In this document: positions 1-30,768 of the stretch, piece by piece | How positions within the stretch are numbered: the stretch's first letter is position 1 | Layout of the letters: each line of letters starts with the position of its first letter | Virus record (IMG/VR): IMGVR_UViG_3300032668_000087 | Coordinates: 1-33,367 of that record | DNA from: a virus | DNA length: 33,367 nucleotides | Direction: 5' to 3' (one strand) | Notes under the pieces: generated by a model | Told to the model about the DNA's origin: nothing | Databases searched by the model: none | What the model saw: the letters and a program-made list of their open reading frames with translations, nothing else | Program-made: the position numbers and the translations under genes

Positions 1-72
1 AGAGACAATAATCGGTGCTGCAATATCTTCCGATGTGGTCGATGTGAAGCCAAAATCAAAATCTTCGTCCAT
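1..72 (-). CDS. Hypothetical protein, N-terminal fragment cut by the window edge
   Basis: An ATG at 72 on the minus strand overlaps the TAA stop of the polymerase gene (TAATG), and the frame stays open for 24 codons to the window edge. The visible N-terminus begins MDEDFDFGFT and is very acidic. The stop/start overlap is typical of translational coupling in T4-like operons, so I infer a real gene co-transcribed with gene 43. An AGGA lies about 12 nt upstream, a weak ribosome site. No family can be assigned from 24 residues. Confidence 0.6.
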   Translation of the reverse strand, partial: MDEDFDFGFTSTTSEDIAAPIIVS

Positions 73-2579
73 TAGCTGAAAAAGTCCTCTAGTGTTGCGA
101 TCTTCTCTGACTTCCAACCAATCACATCCAGAATGCCCTGTAGTGGTGCAATGAACGCTTTATCAAACTGCATTGGATAGTCGATGTACTTCTCCAAATC
201 AAACTCTGATGGCAACTCAGATGGACAGGAGATGACATTTGTTCTAGCGGGATTAGGTGTTTTCATGTAACAGAACTTCACCTTATCACCGTTTGTTATC
301 TGCTCGTATTTATTACCTAGTCCATGACGCTCTAGCATACGATTGTACAGAATACTGCCACGAACATGAATAGGAGTACCAGAAGCATACGTTTCAATGT
401 CTTTGGTTTCATACTTGTCTAGATCACTGACACCACGAGGGAATGCCACTTCCTCAAAAGGCAACTGTGTAAACATTTTACGAAAATCTGCGATGAACGT
501 TTGCAGTGTCGTTTCACTTTCGTTCATGACAAGATTTAATGCCTTCTTAATATTATCACGACAAGATTGTGGTGTTGATGATTTGACCGCTTCAATGCCA
601 GACATCTTTAGCTTTGCCGAATCGTATGCAACCCCTTCTTGATTCCAGACGTTTAGAATGTATCGCTTCTTTGCTGTCCAGATGGCTTTATCGGCAATAG
701 CTTCACGCTTCATGAACATCTTTTGTGCATATGCATTCATCCGAACAGATAGTTCCAGATATGCTTTATCGATGAATGGTTCAATCTTACTAAGGCAAAA
801 CTTATCTAGAACTTCAACGATCTTCTTTGTGTCCGTTTCATCTGGCATGATCTTGTCGACCAGAGGTGCTAGTGTCACATAGATAGAATCTGTATCTGAT
901 GCAATGATATAATCATAGTCTGTCGTACCACATAGCTTGTTCAAGTATTCATTCATACGATCAGCAATCCAGCGGATGGAAAGCTGGCCAGACATAGTAA
1001 TAGCTTCAGCGTGGTTGATGTCATACCAACGGAAGTATTTGTTGCCAAGTGCGCCATAAGCGGAGTTTAGCTGAATCTTCTTCGCCATCTGTAGGTTGTT
1101 GAGCCGTGCAATCTCTTTAGCAAGCTTAGGATCTTTGGTCTTTTCATACATCTTCTTGGCTTCGATCATCTGCTTCTTATAGACAACACGATCATCATAC
1201 ATCTTGGCCATGATAGCACCAAGAAAGCCCTGCTTGTCTTTGCGATATACACAACCATTGGCTGCATAAGAGTATTCAGAGCCTTGCAACCCAGTGTCTC
1301 TAACTCTCAACAGTTGATCGATGCTTAAGAAGTCCCACATCTTTTCAACAAACGTCTCGGGTGAGATGTTGTATTGTTGAATCAAATGTGGGTACAGAGA
1401 GTTAAGGTCGAATGAAACCATCCAACGATGCATACCTGTTTTTGGATCTTTAACATAACCACCAACAAGACTATCATCACTACGACCAGATTTCTTCTGA
1501 TTGCCTACAACGATATTTCGTTGCATCAGATAGTTGTGGATGATTACGTCCCACTGGCGCACAGATGCTAGTGTATCCTGATAGTTTACCTTTGCGTCAT
1601 AAGCAATAGCAAACACCAGTTCAATCAGTTTCATCTTATCTTCTAGCCGATCAACGATATGAACGTCATGAATGTTGTATTCAACGTAAAGCTGAAAGTT
1701 TCTTTCATACAAATCTTGTAGACTTGTGTAACCTTGTGCTTTATAGTCTAGCTTCTGGTCACCAAGTTCGACCTTGGCAATATGATCCAAACGATAGGAT
1801 TCCTGTGATGTGTATGTAAACTTCTTGTAAAGTGCCATCCAGTCAAGTACAGTGATGCCCATCATGTAGTATGATGTCATCTTACGTCCCTTGATTTCAA
1901 CATCATACTCGCGAAGCATTTGCCATGGGCTAAGACGCTTCGCAGCATCTTCTCCTAGAATCATCCGAATGCGACCAACAAGATAGGGAACGTCAAAAAA
2001 CTCTACGTTCCAACCAGTCAGCACATCTGGGCTATAATCATAGGAGTTCCAGATATCTAGAAACTTCTGAAACAGTTGGTATTCATTTTTGCATTTGTAG
2101 TAGGTGATGTTGTCTTCGTGTGGTGTATAATCTCCACAACCAAACACCGCTTTCTTACCATTGCGCGAAATGGTAATAGCAGTCACTTCATTTGGAGTTG
2201 TTTGAATGGCAGTAGCAATATCTACATCGCCAACCACAGTTTCGATATCAAGACTGACAACAGAGATTGCAGAAGGATCGTACTTGATTTCACCTGGAAA
2301 TGTGTCATACATGAATGGATAGATGAAATGGGTCATGCCATAGATTGGCATTCCATCGATGTTTTCATATTTTTTCTGAAACTCTTTTGCATCATCAACC
2401 GAATCGAAGTCGATCTTACCCACAGGAGAACCATGGATGTTTTTATACTTCGTATGTTCTGTTGTAGGAATAAACAGATATGGCTTATAGTTGACAACTT
2501 GCTTTACTTGTTTGCCGTTTTGAATGCCGCGTACATACATCTTGCCGCGCTGCATGAATGTGTTTGTGTAATAATCCAT
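72..2579 (-). CDS. 43: Family B DNA polymerase, T4 gp43-like
   Basis: Replicative DNA polymerase with 3'-5' proofreading, 835 residues against about 900 in T4. Exonuclease motif I is visible as SLDIET near residue 110. Polymerase motif A appears as SFDLNSLYPHLI, motif B as KIQLNSAYGALGNKYFRWYD and motif C as ASDTDSIYV, with both catalytic aspartates present. All motifs are uninterrupted, with no intein or split. The ATG at 2579 has a GAGG ribosome site 5 nt upstream. In T4 it works with the gp45 clamp and the gp44/62 loader, both encoded at 6013-8711. A strong hairpin lies just upstream of the ribosome site (2590-2645); T4 and RB69 gp43 repress their own translation through a leader hairpin, so the same could apply here by inference. 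Confidence 0.98.
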   Translation of the reverse strand: MDYYTNTFMQRGKMYVRGIQNGKQVKQVVNYKPYLFIPTTEHTKYKNIHGSPVGKIDFDSVDDAKEFQKKYENIDGMPIYGMTHFIYPFMYDTFPGEIKYDPSAISVVSLDIETVVGDVDIATAIQTTPNEVTAITISRNGKKAVFGCGDYTPHEDNITYYKCKNEYQLFQKFLDIWNSYDYSPDVLTGWNVEFFDVPYLVGRIRMILGEDAAKRLSPWQMLREYDVEIKGRKMTSYYMMGITVLDWMALYKKFTYTSQESYRLDHIAKVELGDQKLDYKAQGYTSLQDLYERNFQLYVEYNIHDVHIVDRLEDKMKLIELVFAIAYDAKVNYQDTLASVRQWDVIIHNYLMQRNIVVGNQKKSGRSDDSLVGGYVKDPKTGMHRWMVSFDLNSLYPHLIQQYNISPETFVEKMWDFLSIDQLLRVRDTGLQGSEYSYAANGCVYRKDKQGFLGAIMAKMYDDRVVYKKQMIEAKKMYEKTKDPKLAKEIARLNNLQMAKKIQLNSAYGALGNKYFRWYDINHAEAITMSGQLSIRWIADRMNEYLNKLCGTTDYDYIIASDTDSIYVTLAPLVDKIMPDETDTKKIVEVLDKFCLSKIEPFIDKAYLELSVRMNAYAQKMFMKREAIADKAIWTAKKRYILNVWNQEGVAYDSAKLKMSGIEAVKSSTPQSCRDNIKKALNLVMNESETTLQTFIADFRKMFTQLPFEEVAFPRGVSDLDKYETKDIETYASGTPIHVRGSILYNRMLERHGLGNKYEQITNGDKVKFCYMKTPNPARTNVISCPSELPSEFDLEKYIDYPMQFDKAFIAPLQGILDVIGWKSEKIATLEDFFS

Positions 2580-2589
2580 ATCACCTCAA

Positions 2590-2645
2590 CTGTTTAGAAT
2601 CTCTCAATGGCTCATCTTACACCAAAGCGAGAGATTAGTAAACAG
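2590..2645 (-). promoter_or_regulatory. Long hairpin in the gene 43 leader (possible translational operator)
   Basis: In minus-strand RNA, CTGTTTA (2645-2639) pairs with TAAACAG (2596-2590) and AATCTCTC (2636-2629) pairs with GAGAGATT (2605-2598). That gives 15 base pairs interrupted only by a 2x1 internal loop, closing a 23-nt loop. The stem ends 2-3 nt before the GAGG ribosome site of gene 43 and contains the stop codon of the upstream nucleotidyltransferase gene. There is no U-run, so it is not an intrinsic terminator. Its position matches the gp43 operator of T4/RB69, but its sequence is not claimed to be the same. Confidence 0.7.
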
Positions 2646-3381
2646 ATAAATGTCGATCTTGCATTTTTATCAGATATTCGTTTAGCTTATCAATGTAGCC
2701 CATATTACGTAACTCCTTAAAGAGGAGGTTCTCAACAGAAAGTTCACCAGATTTGTGAATACCAGAAGAACGCATATTGCGGATCTTGATCTTGAGGCGC
2801 TTAATGTCCTCGCTATGGTCACCAGTCTTTGTGAGAACATCTTCGATCTGTTTGATTAGATGTTCAAGTCTATTCTTAAAGCCTGTGTCATTGTGAAAGT
2901 CACCTGGCTTCTCTTTTCTTGGCTTGAACAGCCACTTGTCTTGCATTAGAGAGTAGACACCACGATTTGCTTTAGGTGACACCAACTTCTCTCTATAACT
3001 CTGCGCATATAGTTCAACAGGATATCCCATGACAGTCAGCGATGGATGTTTGTATCCCCATAAAAGTTTCTTATCATAAAGATAATCATCAAGATACACG
3101 CGGTTGATACCTGGAATCTTTGGAATGTTGATCAGTAGATGAACGTCTAGATCGGAATGTGGTGTATAGTTATAGTTTGCATTGCCACCAGTGAACACGA
3201 TGTCTTTGATAGCATCTTCTGGAATATTGGCAAACACAGCAAACATTCTACCAATCAATAGAAGACGTTCTTTGATGTTCTGCTTTAGTTCATCACCATC
3301 CCAGATAAGAGGATTCAACTCATCATGATACTGAAACGTAAGAGAGATATCTTCTCTTAGAAAGTGACCAAACTTGTGCAT
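2635..3381 (-). CDS. Nucleotidyltransferase-fold protein
   Basis: A 248-residue protein with a nucleotidyltransferase signature: FTGGNANYNY, then HSDLDVHLLI, giving the G-G/N...DxD metal-binding arrangement near residues 65-85. VELYAQ further on may supply the third acidic position. The C-terminal half is helical and charged. I take the second ATG (3381) as the start because AAGGA sits 6 nt before it and abuts the first ATG at 3387. It lies directly after the lysis peptidase gene and upstream of gene 43, probably in the same transcript. Related proteins are common in T4-like phages; substrate and role are unknown. Confidence 0.75.
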   Translation of the reverse strand: MHKFGHFLREDISLTFQYHDELNPLIWDGDELKQNIKERLLLIGRMFAVFANIPEDAIKDIVFTGGNANYNYTPHSDLDVHLLINIPKIPGINRVYLDDYLYDKKLLWGYKHPSLTVMGYPVELYAQSYREKLVSPKANRGVYSLMQDKWLFKPRKEKPGDFHNDTGFKNRLEHLIKQIEDVLTKTGDHSEDIKRLKIKIRNMRSSGIHKSGELSVENLLFKELRNMGYIDKLNEYLIKMQDRHLSVY

Positions 3382-4888: not shown

Positions 4889-4896
4889 TATAAATA
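4889..4896 (+). promoter_or_regulatory. Late promoter TATAAATA of the first plus-strand homing endonuclease
   Basis: Exact T4 late consensus on the plus strand, the only plus-strand gene downstream being the GIY-YIG endonuclease at 4960. The expected start near 4902 is the first base of the conserved leader hairpin. Confidence 0.75.
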
Positions 4897-4901
4897 CTAA
4901 T

Positions 4902-4959
4902 GTAGATCGCGGTGACTTGGCCGAAACCCATCTACTCTAGAAACTTGGGAGATTCCAGC
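4902..4959 (+). ncRNA. Conserved endonuclease leader hairpin, copy 1
   Basis: Outer stem GTAGAT (4902-4907) pairs with ATCTAC (4930-4935). A CGC bulge (4908-4910), an inner GGT/ACC pair (4911-4913 with 4926-4928) and a 1-nt C bulge follow, then TCTAG, GGGAG and CAGC before the ATG. Three other plus-strand endonuclease genes (copies at 7454, 13396 and 26435) share this layout with different but still paired stem sequences. This copy has the weakest inner stem. Confidence 0.65.
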
Positions 4960-5619
4960 ATGACTACTTATACACCCTATACATATCTCATTGGTTGGTC
5001 TAAACTCAACAAATGGTACTATGGTGTTCGCTTTGCGAAAGGTTGTCGTCCGGACGATCTATGGACATCATACTACACATCATCCAAGTATGTCAAGATG
5101 TTTCGTGAAGAAAATGGTGAACCCGATGTGATTTTGATTAGAAGAACATTTTCTGATCGCATCCAAGCATTAGATTGGGAACATAAAGTTTTGCGTAGAA
5201 TGAATGTGTCTACTAAAGACACATGGCTGAACAAGACAGACAATAGATCCGTAATAAACGACAGATATATGTTAGCAGCATCACATACTCCCATCGCAAA
5301 CAACAAAAGATCAACGGCGATGTGTAAGAAGATATGGATCACTAATGGCAATGAGAACAAAAGAATCGACCAGTATGATCATATTCCTAAAGAATGGCAC
5401 ACTGGTCGATCTAATCTCAAGAGAACCTTTACTTCTAGTCAACTAGAAAGAGTAAAGAATATGGGTATAAACAACAAAAATAAGAGGATTGGAAGAAATA
5501 ACGCTGCTTCCAGAAAGGTTATTTTTGGAGAAACCATATTCGATAGTATCAGAGATGCCATCAAATACACAAATCTATCAAAATATAAACTCAAAAAGCT
5601 AGGCGCTGTCTTTGTATAA
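4960..5619 (+). CDS. GIY-YIG homing endonuclease with C-terminal DNA-binding module
   Basis: A free-standing homing endonuclease of 219 residues. The N-terminus shows a phage-type GIY-YIG pattern: YTYLIGW, then KWYYGVR, then SYYTSSK, with conserved E/H further on in LDWEHKVL. Near residue 122 a second module begins with IWITNGNENKRI and IPKEWHTGRS, a pattern also found in the HNH enzyme at 26490, where it probably binds DNA. The start MTTYTPYT at 4960 is chosen because the conserved leader and GGGAG precede it. The gene opposes its neighbours and stops 1 nt from the regA stop codon, as expected for an inserted cassette. Confidence 0.85.
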   Translation: MTTYTPYTYLIGWSKLNKWYYGVRFAKGCRPDDLWTSYYTSSKYVKMFREENGEPDVILIRRTFSDRIQALDWEHKVLRRMNVSTKDTWLNKTDNRSVINDRYMLAASHTPIANNKRSTAMCKKIWITNGNENKRIDQYDHIPKEWHTGRSNLKRTFTSSQLERVKNMGINNKNKRIGRNNAASRKVIFGETIFDSIRDAIKYTNLSKYKLKKLGAVFV

Positions 5620-7442: not shown

Positions 7443-7450
7443 TATAAGTA
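7443..7450 (+). promoter_or_regulatory. Late-type promoter TATAAGTA of the second plus-strand endonuclease
   Basis: One mismatch from TATAAATA; the same TATAAGTA variant precedes the endonuclease at 13454. The expected start, about 7456, lies at the beginning of the conserved leader hairpin (7454). Confidence 0.6.
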
Positions 7451-7453
7451 GAT

Positions 7454-7509
7454 GTAGGTCACGATGTAACAGCATCTACCTACTCTAACGCTTTTACGGA
7501 GCATCAGCT
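7454..7509 (+). ncRNA. Conserved endonuclease leader hairpin, copy 2
   Basis: Outer stem GTAGGT (7454-7459) pairs with ACCTAC (7478-7483). A CAC bulge follows at 7460-7462, and inner stem GATG (7463-7466) pairs with CATC (7473-7476) around a 6-nt loop, with a single T bulge on the 3' side. TCTAACGC then leads to ACGGAG and CATCAGC before the ATG. Every stem position pairs, and the downstream block is nearly identical to copy 4 (26435). Confidence 0.75.
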
Positions 7510-8058
7510 ATGTTTATATATAAGATCACGAACAAAGTCAATGGTAAAACATACATTGGCAAAACATCAAAGTCTATCGAAGAGAGATTTCGTAGACACT
7601 TCTATCATCACAAAACAGGAAATACACATCTATATAGAGCCATGAGAAAATATGGATTCGATAGTTTTTCTGTAGCAATGATCGAAGAAACTTCTCAACT
7701 AAATGAGAGGGAGATATTCTGGATCAAAGAACTTCAGCCCGAATATAATATGACTAAAGGTGGAGATGGTGGCGATTCATCTAAATCTCTCACTTTCATA
7801 AAATCAATAGAAGTGTATCATAAAAACAAATCTAAAGAATCTTATGCTACATATGGAATGCTAGGTAAAAAACAATCACAGAAGTTCTTCGAATCGATCA
7901 AGAAATCTAACAGTTGTCCAGTAATGTGTGAAGGTGTCCAATATTCTTCTGTAGGTGAAGCAGAAAAAGCTTATCCTGGTATCAATCTAAGAAAAAGATT
8001 GGACAACCCAAAATATCCACATTTCTATCGTTTGCGAAAAAGAACCAGAAGAGGTTAA
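7510..8058 (+). CDS. GIY-YIG homing endonuclease
   Basis: A 182-residue GIY-YIG nuclease. The N-terminus MFIYKITNKVNGKTYIGKTS is a classic GIY-YIG start; R in EERFRRH and E in LNEREIFWIKEL supply the catalytic Arg and Glu, and YNMTKGGDGG closes the domain. The rest looks like a repeat-motif DNA-binding tail ending in RLRKRTRRG. It lies opposite to gp44 and gp45; its TAA and the gp45 TAA share the sequence TTAA, so the two genes overlap tail to tail by 4 nt. T4 Seg and Mob enzymes are comparable free-standing elements. Confidence 0.9.
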   Translation: MFIYKITNKVNGKTYIGKTSKSIEERFRRHFYHHKTGNTHLYRAMRKYGFDSFSVAMIEETSQLNEREIFWIKELQPEYNMTKGGDGGDSSKSLTFIKSIEVYHKNKSKESYATYGMLGKKQSQKFFESIKKSNSCPVMCEGVQYSSVGEAEKAYPGINLRKRLDNPKYPHFYRLRKRTRRG

Positions 8059-13383: not shown

Positions 13384-13391
13384 TATAAGTA
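13384..13391 (+). promoter_or_regulatory. Late-type promoter TATAAGTA of the third plus-strand endonuclease
   Basis: Same one-mismatch variant as at 7443. The expected start, about 13397, is 1 nt inside the conserved hairpin that begins at 13396. The surrounding AT-rich block also reads TATAAATT on the minus strand toward the MazG gene. Confidence 0.55.
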
Positions 13392-13395
13392 CATT

Positions 13396-13453
13396 GTGGT
13401 TCACGATATTACCAGTATCCAACCACTCTAGTCCTCGTACAAGGAGTCCAGCC
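13396..13453 (+). ncRNA. Conserved endonuclease leader hairpin, copy 3
   Basis: Outer stem GTGGTT (13396-13401) pairs with AACCAC (13421-13426). A CAC bulge (13402-13404), inner GATA/TATC (13405-13408 with 13416-13419), 7-nt loop and single C bulge follow. TCTAG, then ACAAGGAG and CCAGCC, lead to the ATG. The stem sequence differs from copies 1, 2 and 4 but all six outer pairs are kept. Confidence 0.72.
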
Positions 13454-14032
13454 ATGAATACTTATTACGTCTATGCATATATCAGAAAATCTGATAACAC
13501 ACCATACTACATAGGTAAAGGGAAATCAAGAAGAATGTACGAAAAACATTCTGTTTCTATTCCCAAAGATAAATCCAAAATAGTTTTTCTAGAAACAAAT
13601 CTTTCAGAGATTGGGGCATTCGCATTAGAACGTCGATATATTAGATGGTATGGCAGAAAAGATTTAGGAACAGGCATTCTTCGCAATAGAACGGACGGAG
13701 GAGAAGGATGTTCCGGAAGAATTATGAGCGAAGAACACAAAATCAAAGTCTCTATAACTGGCAAGAAAAATAAAGGCAAAAAACATTCTGCCGAAACTAT
13801 AGAAAAAAGAGCAGCGAAACTAAGAGGCATTCCGCAAAGTTTAGAATTAGTAAGAAAACGAACAGGGCCCAGGATAGGCACAAAGGTGTCCGACGAAAGC
13901 AAACTAAAAAACTCGATATCAAACAAAAATAGACCTAAAGAGTTATGTCCACATTGTTTAATAATTGCGTCTAAGGGTAATATTCTTAGATGGCACTTGG
14001 ATAAATGTAAACAAGCTACTCGACAACCATAA
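13454..14032 (+). CDS. GIY-YIG homing endonuclease with NUMOD3-type repeats
   Basis: A 192-residue nuclease. [10 protein letters not shown] and [16 protein letters not shown] mark the GIY-YIG domain, with [12 protein letters not shown] carrying the catalytic Glu. From about residue 90, [15 protein letters not shown] and [16 protein letters not shown] are NUMOD3-like DNA-binding repeats. The C-terminus CPHC...HLDKC looks like a small zinc-binding knuckle. Start 13454 is chosen for its match to the conserved leader; the longer frame upstream is leader sequence. Its last 17 nt overlap the end of gp46 on the other strand. Confidence 0.88.
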
Positions 14033-20441: not shown

Positions 20442-20957
20442 TTATAGTCTGGTGTATGTGTACTCGCGATATGAAAACTCTGCTGTAGCCGTAACGTAGT
20501 TTACATCAGTTTCAGTGGAATCAAATCTGAAACCCGACAGTGAAATGGGGTTGACATCACTAAATGTGATCTTAAGATTTGGATTCATTGTACCATTCAA
20601 TACAATCAAGTCCGCGTCTACAAGAACACCGAAACCGTTTGGCTGTGCATTCAATGCTGCATACTGATTGAAACTCTCTGGAGTACCAATACCAGTCATC
20701 CAGTCATAGATTTCAAAGTAGTTGTACATGTCTTCATCGATCTTGAATGTCAACGAGAATGTATCAAACGTCAATGGAGTACCTGGCAACTGTATCTTAC
20801 CGAAAGGTGTCTGTTGATTTCTGCTAGTGCTTAGACTGATGCGAGGAAAATCAAAGCTTTGGGCAAAGTAGTCAACATTTGGATTCTTGGTGAGATTAAA
20901 CTTATAACCAAGCGGGCTGAGAAAGTCGATTGATACAGGTTGAGTTGGATTTGTCAT
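20442..20957 (-). CDS. 19: Tail tube protein, gp19-like
   Basis: A 171-residue virion protein close in size to T4 gp19 (163). Characteristic features are DYFAQSFDFPRISLS near the N-terminus, FGKIQLPGTPLTFDTFSLTF, FEIYDWMTGIG and a beta-rich C-terminus DVNYVTATAEFSYREYTYTRL-like. It polymerises into the inner tube of the contractile tail. The ATG overlaps the stop of the upstream GIY-YIG gene (ATGA), so its late promoter is probably the TATAAATA at 21605, now separated from it by that gene. Confidence 0.88.
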   Translation of the reverse strand: MTNPTQPVSIDFLSPLGYKFNLTKNPNVDYFAQSFDFPRISLSTSRNQQTPFGKIQLPGTPLTFDTFSLTFKIDEDMYNYFEIYDWMTGIGTPESFNQYAALNAQPNGFGVLVDADLIVLNGTMNPNLKITFSDVNPISLSGFRFDSTETDVNYVTATAEFSYREYTYTRL

Positions 20958-21577
20958 AAAACATCTTTCTTTTTGTATGGACCTCGTTTGATTCCAGTTC
21001 GCGCTAATCCGCTTTTTCTTCCTGCTTCCTTCATCAATTCTTTTGGTCTAGATTTTTGTGCGATAGACTGTTTTTCTTTCCAAACATCACCCCTATTTCT
21101 TGCATTTTCCCTAAACGCGCATAGAGTAGCTTCCGAATACACTCCAGTTTTTCCTTTATTCCAGGGCTCTTTATCAAGTAGGATTTTAGATTTATTATCT
21201 TTCCATTCCTGAGTACGCTCGTATTTGCCCATTTTTGCGCTATTAGATTTAGGCTTCCTCATCTTCTGCCTGGTCTCTTCGGTGTGTTGCCATCCTGATA
21301 TTCTGCCGCCGCTTATATTCTCTACGATCAGATTGGCCCATTCTTTAGATTCTACTATATTATTATCTTCGGAAAACTTGATTGCAAAATCTCTAGCTTC
21401 TTCCTCGTCATAAAACGAGAACAACTCTAACGTTTCTTGTTTAGAATTGTGTTTTTTTAGATGATCTTTCCAGTAGATTCCAGAACCCGTATATGATATG
21501 GGATCGGATCCCATTGTTTTACCGAAATATCTCAGTTCGCAGTGTGTGCATTTTTTCACATAAAGATGTATTGCCAT
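20954..21577 (-). CDS. GIY-YIG homing endonuclease co-directional with gp19
   Basis: A 207-residue nuclease. IHLYVKKCTHCELRYFGKT is a Seg-type GIY-YIG start, followed by YTGSGIYWKDHLKKH, EEARDFAIKFSEDNNIVES and WANLIVENISGG. From residue 100, HTEETRQKMRKPKS and several Lys-rich repeats form the likely DNA-binding tail ending KRGPYKKKDVL. Unlike the four plus-strand endonucleases it is on the same strand as its neighbour, ends in an ATGA overlap with gp19 and lacks the conserved hairpin leader. The ribosome site is poor (AGATAGGT). Confidence 0.87.
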   Translation of the reverse strand: MAIHLYVKKCTHCELRYFGKTMGSDPISYTGSGIYWKDHLKKHNSKQETLELFSFYDEEEARDFAIKFSEDNNIVESKEWANLIVENISGGRISGWQHTEETRQKMRKPKSNSAKMGKYERTQEWKDNKSKILLDKEPWNKGKTGVYSEATLCAFRENARNRGDVWKEKQSIAQKSRPKELMKEAGRKSGLARTGIKRGPYKKKDVL

Positions 21578-26306: not shown

Positions 26307-26339
26307 TTAAACAATAAGTAGAGCGCAATGCTCTTTTGA

Positions 26340-26414
26340 TTCCCGGTCGTCTAATGAGTAGGACCACGCCCTTTGAAGGCGTTAATGTTGGGGCGGGGCC
26401 AACCCGGGAATCCA
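26340..26414 (+). tRNA. tRNA-Gln(TTG) with non-canonical T-loop
   Basis: Acceptor TTCCCGG/CCGGGAA, D-stem GTCT/GGAC, anticodon arm ACGCC-CTTTGAA-GGCGT with TTG, T-stem GTTGG/CCAAC, then T and encoded CCA. All stems pair. The T-loop is GGCGGGG in place of the near-universal TTCRANY, and the D-loop AATGAGTA lacks GG, so the usual elbow contact is absent. Confidence 0.8.
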
Positions 26415-26418
26415 TTAT

Positions 26419-26426
26419 TATAAATA
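26419..26426 (+). promoter_or_regulatory. Late promoter TATAAATA of the HNH endonuclease
   Basis: Exact late consensus 5 nt after the Gln tRNA CCA. Expected start about 26432, just before the conserved leader hairpin at 26435. Confidence 0.75.
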
Positions 26427-26434
26427 AATGTGCT

Positions 26435-26489
26435 GGTAGTCACGGTATCCCCATACCCACTACCTCTAACGCTTACAAGGAGCATCAGC
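26435..26489 (+). ncRNA. Conserved endonuclease leader hairpin, copy 4
   Basis: Outer stem GGTAGT (26435-26440) pairs with ACTACC (26459-26464). A CAC bulge, inner stem GGTAT (26444-26448) with ATACC (26453-26457) around a CCCC tetraloop, and a single C bulge complete it. TCTAACGC, ACAAGGAG and CATCAGC lead to the ATG. This is the most stable copy and fronts an HNH enzyme, not a GIY-YIG one. Confidence 0.78.
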
Positions 26490-27014
26490 ATGTCTATTTA
26501 TCACACCCACCATATCGTCCCTCGCCATATGGGAGGCACAGACGATCCTTCAAATCTTGTCAGATTGACGATTGAAGAACACGCGGAAGCGCATAAAAAG
26601 TTGTATGTGGAATACGGCAAGGAAGAGGATAGGATTGCTTGGTTAGCACTATCTGGTCAAATGACTATGGCAGAAGCTTCTAAAAATGCCATTAAACTAG
26701 GATCTATAAAAGGTATTGCTACACAAAAAAGATTAAAATCTGAACGAGGTGAGTGGTACAAAAATAATGCTGAAACGATATCAAAATCACTAAAGATTTA
26801 TATCAGTGAAAATGGAAGTTGGTGGACAGGTAAAACTCACAGTGAAAGTACCAAGAAAAAAATAGGCAAAAAGAATGCTGTTTCACAATCAGGTTGTAAG
26901 AACTCACAACATGGTACAATGTGGATAACCAATCGTACAAAAAATATGAAGATTAAAAAAACAGACATTATTCCATCTGGATGGATTAAAGGTAGAACGA
27001 TGTGCGGGGAGTAG
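26490..27014 (+). CDS. HNH homing endonuclease
   Basis: A 174-residue nuclease. THHIVPRHMGGTDDPSNLV followed by LTIEEHAEAHKKLY is an HNH core with the His-His pair, Asn and two later His residues. GSWWTGKTHSESTKKKIGKK is a NUMOD3-like segment, and MWITNRTKNMKI with IPSGWIKGRT at the end matches the C-terminal module of the GIY-YIG enzyme at 4960. Start 26490 follows the conserved leader. Its stop codon lies within the 5' arm of a strong terminator. It faces the surrounding late genes. Confidence 0.87.
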   Translation: MSIYHTHHIVPRHMGGTDDPSNLVRLTIEEHAEAHKKLYVEYGKEEDRIAWLALSGQMTMAEASKNAIKLGSIKGIATQKRLKSERGEWYKNNAETISKSLKIYISENGSWWTGKTHSESTKKKIGKKNAVSQSGCKNSQHGTMWITNRTKNMKIKKTDIIPSGWIKGRTMCGE

Positions 27015-27036
27015 TTTTGCTACTCCCCCTTTTTTT
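27006..27036 (+). terminator. Intrinsic terminator of the HNH endonuclease gene
   Basis: GGGGAGTAG (27006-27014) pairs perfectly with CTACTCCCC (27020-27028) around a 5-nt loop, then C and seven Ts. The 5' arm includes the TAG stop codon of the endonuclease. The T-run is only on the plus strand, and overlaps the end of the convergent protease gene. Confidence 0.92.
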
Positions 27037-27814
27037 ATTTACGGATTGTCCAAGCGTCTGTAGCTAACTTGGGATCTTCTAGATATCTTGCTGGAATCCA
27101 GAAGTGGCCATCGTCGCCCCAGTCTGTTCCCCAAGAGTTGCGTACTTCATAGTATGGTTCTACTTTACCATCTGCACCATGCGCACTAGGATCAAAGTTA
27201 TTATCATAACCAATGACTGTGACAGCATGACCACCTAAGCATTGTGTCCAGTATTCTGGCATTGCAATAACACCAGATTGTGCAACTTCTGGCGTTTCAA
27301 AGTCTTGATAGATTTGAATGCCAATAATGAATGGGAATCCATCAGATAGACATTGACGATATTCGATACCACTACCATCTGCTAGAGATGAGTAAGCAGA
27401 AATCTTGTTCTCCAATGCTTCTTGAACTTCGATTGCAGGAGGAGCAACAGCGAACTTTGAGATATCGTATGGCCAATCTTTTTCTAGACCAACACCCTGT
27501 AGATTTAGAACCTTGATTGCATCGCGAAGAAATGCACCAGAGTCATGCTCGACTGTGCCTTCTAGAACTCGCTCTTGATAATAAAGTGCTAGTCTTGAAT
27601 ATGGACCACCATCATGAACAAAGGTAAAGGCTGCTGTGGCTGCTTGTGCAGAACAAGAACCTAGTTCGCCTTGATCGTATGGCTTTTCTTTAAACTTGCT
27701 TCTAAGACTGACCTTATCTGGTAAAGGTGCAGCTTTAGGAGCATGAATCGCACTAAACTTCCAGTCTCTAGGATCATATGGGTCTTTAATGTAACCATAT
27801 TTTCTGGTAGGCAT
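27035..27814 (-). CDS. Papain-like (C1A) cysteine protease
   Basis: A 259-residue protein with a complete papain active site. YDQGELGSCSAQAATAAF near residue 47 carries the oxyanion Gln and catalytic Cys, GGHAVTVIGYD near 200 the catalytic His, and VRNSWGTDWGDDGHFWIP near 228 the Asn. A short N-terminal KDPYDPRDWKF segment may act as a prosegment, as in other viral and bacterial relatives. No signal peptide. AAAGGAAAG precedes the ATG. It follows the 737-residue structural gene, so a virion or maturation role is likely by inference; it differs from the gp21 prohead protease family. Confidence 0.9.
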   Translation of the reverse strand: MPTRKYGYIKDPYDPRDWKFSAIHAPKAAPLPDKVSLRSKFKEKPYDQGELGSCSAQAATAAFTFVHDGGPYSRLALYYQERVLEGTVEHDSGAFLRDAIKVLNLQGVGLEKDWPYDISKFAVAPPAIEVQEALENKISAYSSLADGSGIEYRQCLSDGFPFIIGIQIYQDFETPEVAQSGVIAMPEYWTQCLGGHAVTVIGYDNNFDPSAHGADGKVEPYYEVRNSWGTDWGDDGHFWIPARYLEDPKLATDAWTIRK

Positions 27815-30174: not shown

Positions 30175-30768
30175 TTATGTAGATTCGACTTTTGATTTTC
30201 TAATCTGTTTGTATCCTGGTGTATTGCCACGTTGCTTTCTGCCTTCAGCGTATGCAAGTTTCAAAGATTCAGATTTCTTTCTCTTGGTTTCTTCTGATTG
30301 CTTTTTGCCTTTTTGTGCATTGCTCATATTAACAAGCATCTCTGGTGTTTTGATGTATGATCGAGAACGTTTAGTTTCTTTGATTTTATCTTTTACTTCC
30401 TGTGGTCTAGGTCCGTTTGATTTGCCTGTTTTGGCTTCTGATATCTTTTGACCTACTGTTTTTGATATTTCTTCATTGTTAGACCAATGTGTATTGTTTT
30501 TATTGTTTAGGTTATAATACTTTTTGCCAAGTTCATCATTGGAAATAAGACTAAGCCATTTATACTCCTCATTGAACATTTCTTGTTTTGTTTCGATATT
30601 TGTTTTCAATATTTTTCTTCTGAAGTCTTGTGGTCTTATTCTATATGCCTGTTTCATCCATCTAGATGAACAAACATACGTATCGTTTTCTGTTCCCCAA
30701 TGACATCCCACATAATATCTTTTGTGTTTACGGTCATACCAAATGTAAACGAAACCATATTTCTGCAT
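30175..30768 (-). CDS. GIY-YIG homing endonuclease downstream of gp23
   Basis: A 197-residue nuclease. GFVYIWYDRKHKRYYVGCHW is the GIY-YIG core; FNEEYKWLSLI gives the catalytic Glu and YYNLNNKNN closes the domain. Residues 105-190 hold two NUMOD3-like repeats (EISKTVGQKISEAKTGKS and KGKKQSEETKRKKSESL) and a basic tail. It is co-directional with gp23 and lacks the plus-strand leader family. Its GGGAG ribosome site lies in the 3' arm of a 9-bp hairpin (30774-30804), so translation should be restrained, as is known for several T4 homing enzymes. Confidence 0.87.
   Translation of the reverse strand: MQKYGFVYIWYDRKHKRYYVGCHWGTENDTYVCSSRWMKQAYRIRPQDFRRKILKTNIETKQEMFNEEYKWLSLISNDELGKKYYNLNNKNNTHWSNNEEISKTVGQKISEAKTGKSNGPRPQEVKDKIKETKRSRSYIKTPEMLVNMSNAQKGKKQSEETKRKKSESLKLAYAEGRKQRGNTPGYKQIRKSKVEST

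Follow-up and report, generated by a model that had tools for sequence, protein, structure and literature searches.

RNA-OUT of IS10/Tn10 is an antisense RNA of ~69 nt, transcribed from a facing promoter, that exerts copy-dependent control (PMC5006887). Among phages, P22 sar (68/69 nt) and P1/P7 c4 (77 nt) are antisense RNAs that block the translation start of ant (PMC12197685), and CfrI from the T4-like phage S-PM2 is an antisense RNA overlapping a homing endonuclease gene (PMC2984593). RNA structure in combination with a late promoter also occurs in front of homing endonuclease genes, as exemplified by the RBS-sequestering hairpins of I-TevI, SegB and MobE and by the seg43(25) hairpin (PMC2988022).

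The element described here resembles RNA-OUT in lying antisense to the translation start of a selfish element's DNA-cutting enzyme. The two differ in sequence and fold, and the sigma-70 promoter and transposase of IS10/Tn10 contrast with T4-late-type boxes and a homing endonuclease in the present case; repression by RNA-OUT is demonstrated, whereas repression by the present element is predicted. Like sar and c4, the product would be a small phage antisense RNA acting at a translation start. These two RNAs, however, target an antirepressor from a single locus, while the present element is a mobile multicopy family without homology to them (no Rfam match). CfrI differs in being ~225 nt long and running along F-CphI and psbA, and S-PM2, CfrI included, contains no match to the covariance model of the element (R1). 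In the I-TevI, SegB, MobE and seg43(25) systems the fold is located on the endonuclease mRNA and is gene-specific, in contrast to the one shared, covarying family reported here. The proposed mode of action is already known for transposons and phage antirepressors, as is one unrelated antisense RNA, CfrI, that overlaps a phage endonuclease gene. Mobile elements also contain HEARO/IscB omega RNA, which is structured and precedes a nuclease gene; it is much larger than the present element, is encoded on the same strand as the nuclease and guides it.

Four copies of the element in one T4-like phage

The window, the whole 33,367-nucleotide stretch analysed, is a 33-kb virus record from a T4-like phage, the DNA polymerase of which is ~50% identical to marine cyanophage polymerases. 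Most of its genes are on the minus strand, while four endonuclease genes (ATGs at 4960, 7510, 13454 and 26490) are on the plus strand. The initial annotation proposed that these four genes carry one leader plan, and re-examination confirmed this, including every outer stem listed. In all four copies TATAARTA is followed by a 6-bp outer stem, CGC or CAC 5' of an inner stem and a single nucleotide 3' of it, the outer 3' arm, and then by CTCTA, GGAG and CAGC before the ATG. Each of the four hairpins shows genuine compensatory changes, as reported. A second late-promoter-like box (TATTTAT in the sense of the endonuclease) is located 3' of CAGC, within the first codons. The features of the four copies, in which P1 and P2 are the hairpins as read on the minus strand, are as follows.

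26419..26426, plus: left box TATAAATA, late-promoter type, predicted to drive HEG4; position conserved in 114/122 copies
26419..26426, minus-strand view: the complement of the HEG4 left box contributes to the T-rich tract that follows P1
26435..26464, minus: P1 hairpin of the putative antisense RNA; 6-bp outer stem, R-Y pair between two bulged Gs, inner stem
26466..26488, minus: P2 hairpin of the putative antisense RNA; 8 bp with an invariant G.U, the loop being the Shine-Dalgarno complement
26422..26489, minus: predicted antisense small RNA, ~67 nt, +1 = 26489 (G), from box geometry and fold
26495..26501, minus: right box (minus GATAAATA), late-promoter-like, in HEG4 codons 2-4
26490..27014, plus: HEG4, HNH/NUMOD3 endonuclease
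4889..4896, plus: left box TATAAATA of HEG1
4902..4935, minus: P1, copy 1
4937..4958, minus: P2, copy 1
4890..4959, minus: predicted antisense small RNA, copy 1, +1 = 4959
4965..4972, minus: right box, copy 1 (minus TATAAGTA)
4960..5619, plus: HEG1, GIY-YIG-like homing endonuclease (PHROG homing endonuclease)
7443..7450, plus: left box TATAAGTA of HEG2
7454..7483, minus: P1, copy 2
7485..7507, minus: P2, copy 2
7510..8058, plus: HEG2, GIY-YIG endonuclease
13384..13391, plus: left box TATAAGTA of HEG3
13396..13426, minus: P1, copy 3
13428..13451, minus: P2, copy 3
13459..13465, minus: right box, copy 3 (minus AATAAGTA)
13454..14032, plus: HEG3, GIY-YIG-like endonuclease

The element is absent at both minus-strand endonuclease genes of the window (20954-21577 and 30175-30768), which have the orientation of the genes around them. 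Both of these endonuclease-like genes have a late box, and a simple hairpin of another kind, TACTCTTGCGAGAGTA, occurs at the second. Elsewhere in the window, positions 26338-26414 hold a tRNA-like sequence with TTG in the anticodon loop (possibly Gln), a 3' CCA and an unusual T-loop, which was missed by ARAGORN and Rfam and ends a few bases before the HEG4 left box; positions 27035-27814 hold a papain-type (C1) cysteine protease gene of a T4-like phage.

A large RNA family beside homing endonuclease genes

A pattern comprising a late box, CTCTA, GGAG and CAGC matched at least 119 stretches in viral_contigs, compared with ~6 chance matches estimated, and a second pattern without any late box likewise matched at least 119; nearly all the matches fold alike, with different stems. 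A covariance model, as the initial annotation had proposed, was built from 146 copies and gave 240 matches in the fetched loci, with a gap between about E=1e-9 and E=1. Copies outside the model-building set scored from E=1e-9 to 1e-21, while the E-values of the model-building copies follow by construction. As the seed copies were gathered with patterns that fix CTCTA, GGAG and CAGC, invariance at these blocks derives partly from selection of the copies. In the copies found by the model and not by a pattern (~50 in whole records and ~16 extra on fetched loci), CTA and CAG are still kept, while the T, GGAG and the upper P2 pairs are variable. Up to 13 copies are present in a single phage record.

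BLAST searches of cultured phages with single leaders returned essentially no matches, and the covariance model was therefore run on records reached through protein matches. This identified copies in the cultured phages RHph_I1_18 (Rhizobium), V45v66 (Variovorax) and XG4 (Pseudoalteromonas), while the model found no copy in T4, S-PM2, HTVC008M or S-CRM01. A scan of bacterial genome contigs was essentially negative, yielding six chance matches and one true copy, the latter on a contig of 3.8 kb, possibly a piece of phage DNA. Rfam 15 contains no family that matches at or above its gathering threshold, and a permissive scan was also without a match, in agreement with the earlier view that no RNA with this pattern has been described. 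The literature searched yielded no account of a covarying antisense RNA family that is common to homing endonucleases and has spread with them. The copies form a large RNA family that is absent from Rfam and occurs mainly in uncultured T4-like phages. A chance origin is ruled out by the pattern counts, the gap in the covariance-model scores and the tree-based null described below. A self-cleaving ribozyme was also rejected, there being no Rfam ribozyme match and few conserved unpaired bases.

The open reading frame after the element was of homing-endonuclease type in 51/51 copies from five phage records, some of them frameshifted, and 62 of 97 downstream proteins match a PHROG homing-endonuclease family. 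Many copies beyond the initial four thus do lie beside endonuclease genes, and the initial annotation passes this test of its own. Pfam matches downstream include GIY-YIG, HNH, TnsA-like nuclease and NUMOD3, consistent with the proposal that the fold is common to unrelated nuclease families. Not every such gene has an element, as ~24 of 38 phrog_314 matches in six records were paired to one by position. The same 34-nt P1 sequence stands in front of nuclease genes of three unrelated types: GIY-YIG-like (in the window), TnsA-like (L035) and a third type (L169 and L193). This bears out the earlier suggestion that the leader travels independently of nuclease family. L169 and L193 are near-identical loci that differ by a joint swap of both P2 arms. 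Three further loci (L255, L271 and L303) have frameshifted endonuclease genes behind an intact element, as expected of decaying homing genes. Others (L110, L114, L118 and similar) have a full element with some downstream open reading frames that are short (~120-150 aa) and displayed no obvious nuclease domain on a quick look, that of L110 being without a Pfam match. In XG4 (L252, positions 1-3090) an antisense endonuclease gene splits the DNA polymerase gene into two separately startable halves, and the element lies directly before the second half.

The conserved fold lies opposite the endonuclease mRNA

The hairpin had been read as a structured leader of the endonuclease mRNA, an interpretation that placed it on the wrong strand. 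The model alignment contains 122 distinct copies and 1917 Watson-Crick cells, and its wobble cells comprise 128 that are G.U on the minus strand versus 3 that are G.U on the plus (mRNA) strand; one further G.U pair, invariant on the minus strand, is outside the count of 128. Among the 50 copies from whole records and cultured phages the corresponding numbers, beyond the invariant pair, are 54 and 3. A strand-neutral parser, which used anchored registers and treated G.T and A.C as equal, found almost no G.U and many A.C on the mRNA strand, and many A.C on that strand imply G.U on the other. The bias is independent of gene orientation, being 41:1 where the endonuclease runs with its neighbours and 155:2 where it runs against them. 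The opposite strand also has the lower mean folding energy (-21.4 versus -16.6 kcal/mol for the mRNA strand) and gives the more stable fold in 93-98% of copies. These data show that the conserved, covarying fold is that of the strand opposite the endonuclease mRNA.

On the minus strand the fold consists of P2 (8 bp, including the one invariant G.U), a single linking nucleotide and P1, in which 6 bp are followed by a bulged G, an R-Y pair, a second bulged G and the inner stem. P1 is the hairpin of the initial annotation, whose CAC/CGC and single-nucleotide bulges are, on the other strand, the R-Y pair flanked by two bulged Gs. The reported constancy of TCTA holds in the four window copies, but the second covarying stem, P2, was overlooked: at its base the TCTA block pairs with the CAGC block, and does so properly only on the minus strand. 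The C-G pair at the base of P2 is replaced in XG4 by G-C. Against a phylogeny-aware, tree-based null, 9 of 18 pairs covary at E<0.05, in both stems; the test was home-made and is distinct from R-scape. Of all cells, 98.9% pair in register, compared with 33-48% after a slide of 1-3 columns. The selected RNA fold originally claimed thus receives support, and the hairpin's compensatory changes extend across the family.

Conserved structure on the antisense strand is a feature of cis-encoded antisense RNAs such as RNA-OUT, and P2, which holds the complement of the Shine-Dalgarno sequence, overlaps the translation start region of the putative target. By contrast, the arrangement typical of I-TevI, in which an RBS-pairing helix forms on the endonuclease mRNA in read-through transcripts only, was not found, because the mRNA strand has A.C mismatches and P1 is downstream of the late promoter.

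Late-promoter boxes and a putative antisense RNA gene

Late promoters of T4-like phages contain TATAAATA at -13 to -6, the first T being weakly conserved (PMC1524935), and those of S-PM2 read NATAAATA (PMC2984593). Both boxes of the element show the T4-type arrangement, NATAAATA ~5 nt before the predicted +1. Where its position is conserved (114/122 copies), the left box fits NATAAATA in 101 and is 5 nt upstream of P1 in 67, so that the predicted endonuclease mRNA starts at P1. The right box, TAARTA, is present in 106/122 copies, 5-9 nt before P2 (mode 6), versus ~1/122 in control coding sequence, and fits NATAAATA in 92 of the 106. It keeps its distance to CAGC across different reading frames, and a G immediately precedes P2 in 119/122 copies. 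A late box ~5 nt ahead of this conserved G, as seen in 106/122, matches the geometry of T4-type late promoters. The fit to TATAARTA in the window is 4/4 for left boxes and 1/4 for right boxes; in the cultured phages the right box is absent from XG4 and ~12-15 nt away in RHph_I1_18 and V45v66. All eight copies that lack the left box retain the right one, and seven of these have 6-9 T in the 12 nt after P1. A long-range stem, P0, formed by TATAAATA and the downstream TATTTAT in a three-way junction, was considered because the two boxes are complementary, and is weakened by the retention of the right box in these eight copies. Being interrupted and overlapping the left promoter, the T-rich tract behind P1 provides a weak signal for termination; a simple terminator scan of the window did not flag P1. 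These imperfections of right box and terminator weaken the reading proposed next.

We propose, with a probability of about 0.58, that the element is a gene for a small antisense RNA and is oriented convergently to the endonuclease gene. Whereas family, fold and strand can be read from the aligned copies, promoter, RNA ends and repression are predictions. Transcription would start at the T4-type late promoter NATAAATA, ~5 nt before the conserved G and inside the first endonuclease codons, pass through P2 and then P1, and end in the T-rich tract behind P1, giving a predicted product of ~67 nt. This RNA would pair with the 5' untranslated region and Shine-Dalgarno sequence of the endonuclease mRNA, both transcripts being made at the same late time from facing promoters. 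By analogy with IS10 RNA-OUT and P22 sar, pairing may hold endonuclease synthesis down, an effect suggested by complementarity; conservation of an antisense-strand fold need not mean action on the endonuclease. With up to 13 copies per phage, sister copies may be cross-regulated. Predicted duplex energies for the window copies are ~-135 kcal/mol for cognate and -41 to -63 kcal/mol for non-cognate pairs. More tentatively, the element may be a horizontally shuffled antisense module, unrelated in sequence to catalogued RNAs, that has become dispersed among T4-like phages and serves homing endonucleases of several unrelated families as a shared means of control, with cross-regulation of sister copies serving as a copy-number-sensing brake.

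The minus-strand fold could instead belong to the 5' UTR of the neighbouring gene, with or without the right box as promoter, and maintain expression of the displaced downstream gene or mRNA stability. The endonuclease runs against both neighbours in 76 of 122 copies, the neighbour's start is often 7-40 nt from the element, the XG4 copy is directly ahead of the second half of the split gp43, and the two window endonuclease genes that run with the operon are without an element. However, the 19 copies in which the endonuclease has the same sense as both neighbours keep the fold and the wobble bias (41:1) without such a downstream gene, and we consider this explanation unlikely. Slightly less likely still is a small RNA that acts in trans on targets of the phage or host and has the endonuclease genes as a mere vehicle. 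Its P2 loop shows a CUCCUU-type anti-Shine-Dalgarno sequence, and the self-contained gene architecture, independence of context and conserved loop complement of GGAG would suit such a role, although the endonuclease Shine-Dalgarno by itself dictates this loop complement.

That P1 is at the predicted +1 of the late mRNA in 67/114 copies, and would thus form a 5'-terminal hairpin on the mRNA too, is consistent with a structured leader controlling translation of the endonuclease mRNA, in the manner of RBS-sequestering hairpins, as is the overlap of P2 with the Shine-Dalgarno. On the mRNA strand, however, P2 is full of A.C mismatches and G.U is nearly absent, and in the known I-TevI-type cases the late transcript lacks the hairpin. 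The wobble strand rules this out as the main reading, and any such role is highly improbable. Equally improbable is a single-stranded DNA hairpin or cruciform that functions in cassette movement or recombination. It would account for the near absence of wobble pairs from P1 itself and for the swapping of P1 and P2 as modules between genes, and G.T is milder than A.C in DNA as well; the invariant G.U and the wobble in about half of copies at one P2 pair are, by contrast, RNA-like, and a promoter-like box stands at fitting spacing before P2. No sign of a partner hairpin was seen at the 3' end, where the endonuclease stop codon frequently overlaps or directly adjoins the following gene. A HUH-transposon-like or attC-like DNA hairpin seems improbable, as there is no sign of a second end hairpin.

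The strand assignment illustrates how an RNA may be attributed to the wrong molecule when its hairpin is read without regard to strand. If the element is indeed an antisense RNA gene, it would add a large RNA family and indicate that free-standing homing endonucleases carry a shared antisense brake, as bacterial transposons do. It would also explain how a selfish gene inserted against a host operon has its own regulated late expression, and would render the control of homing endonucleases testable across three nuclease superfamilies.
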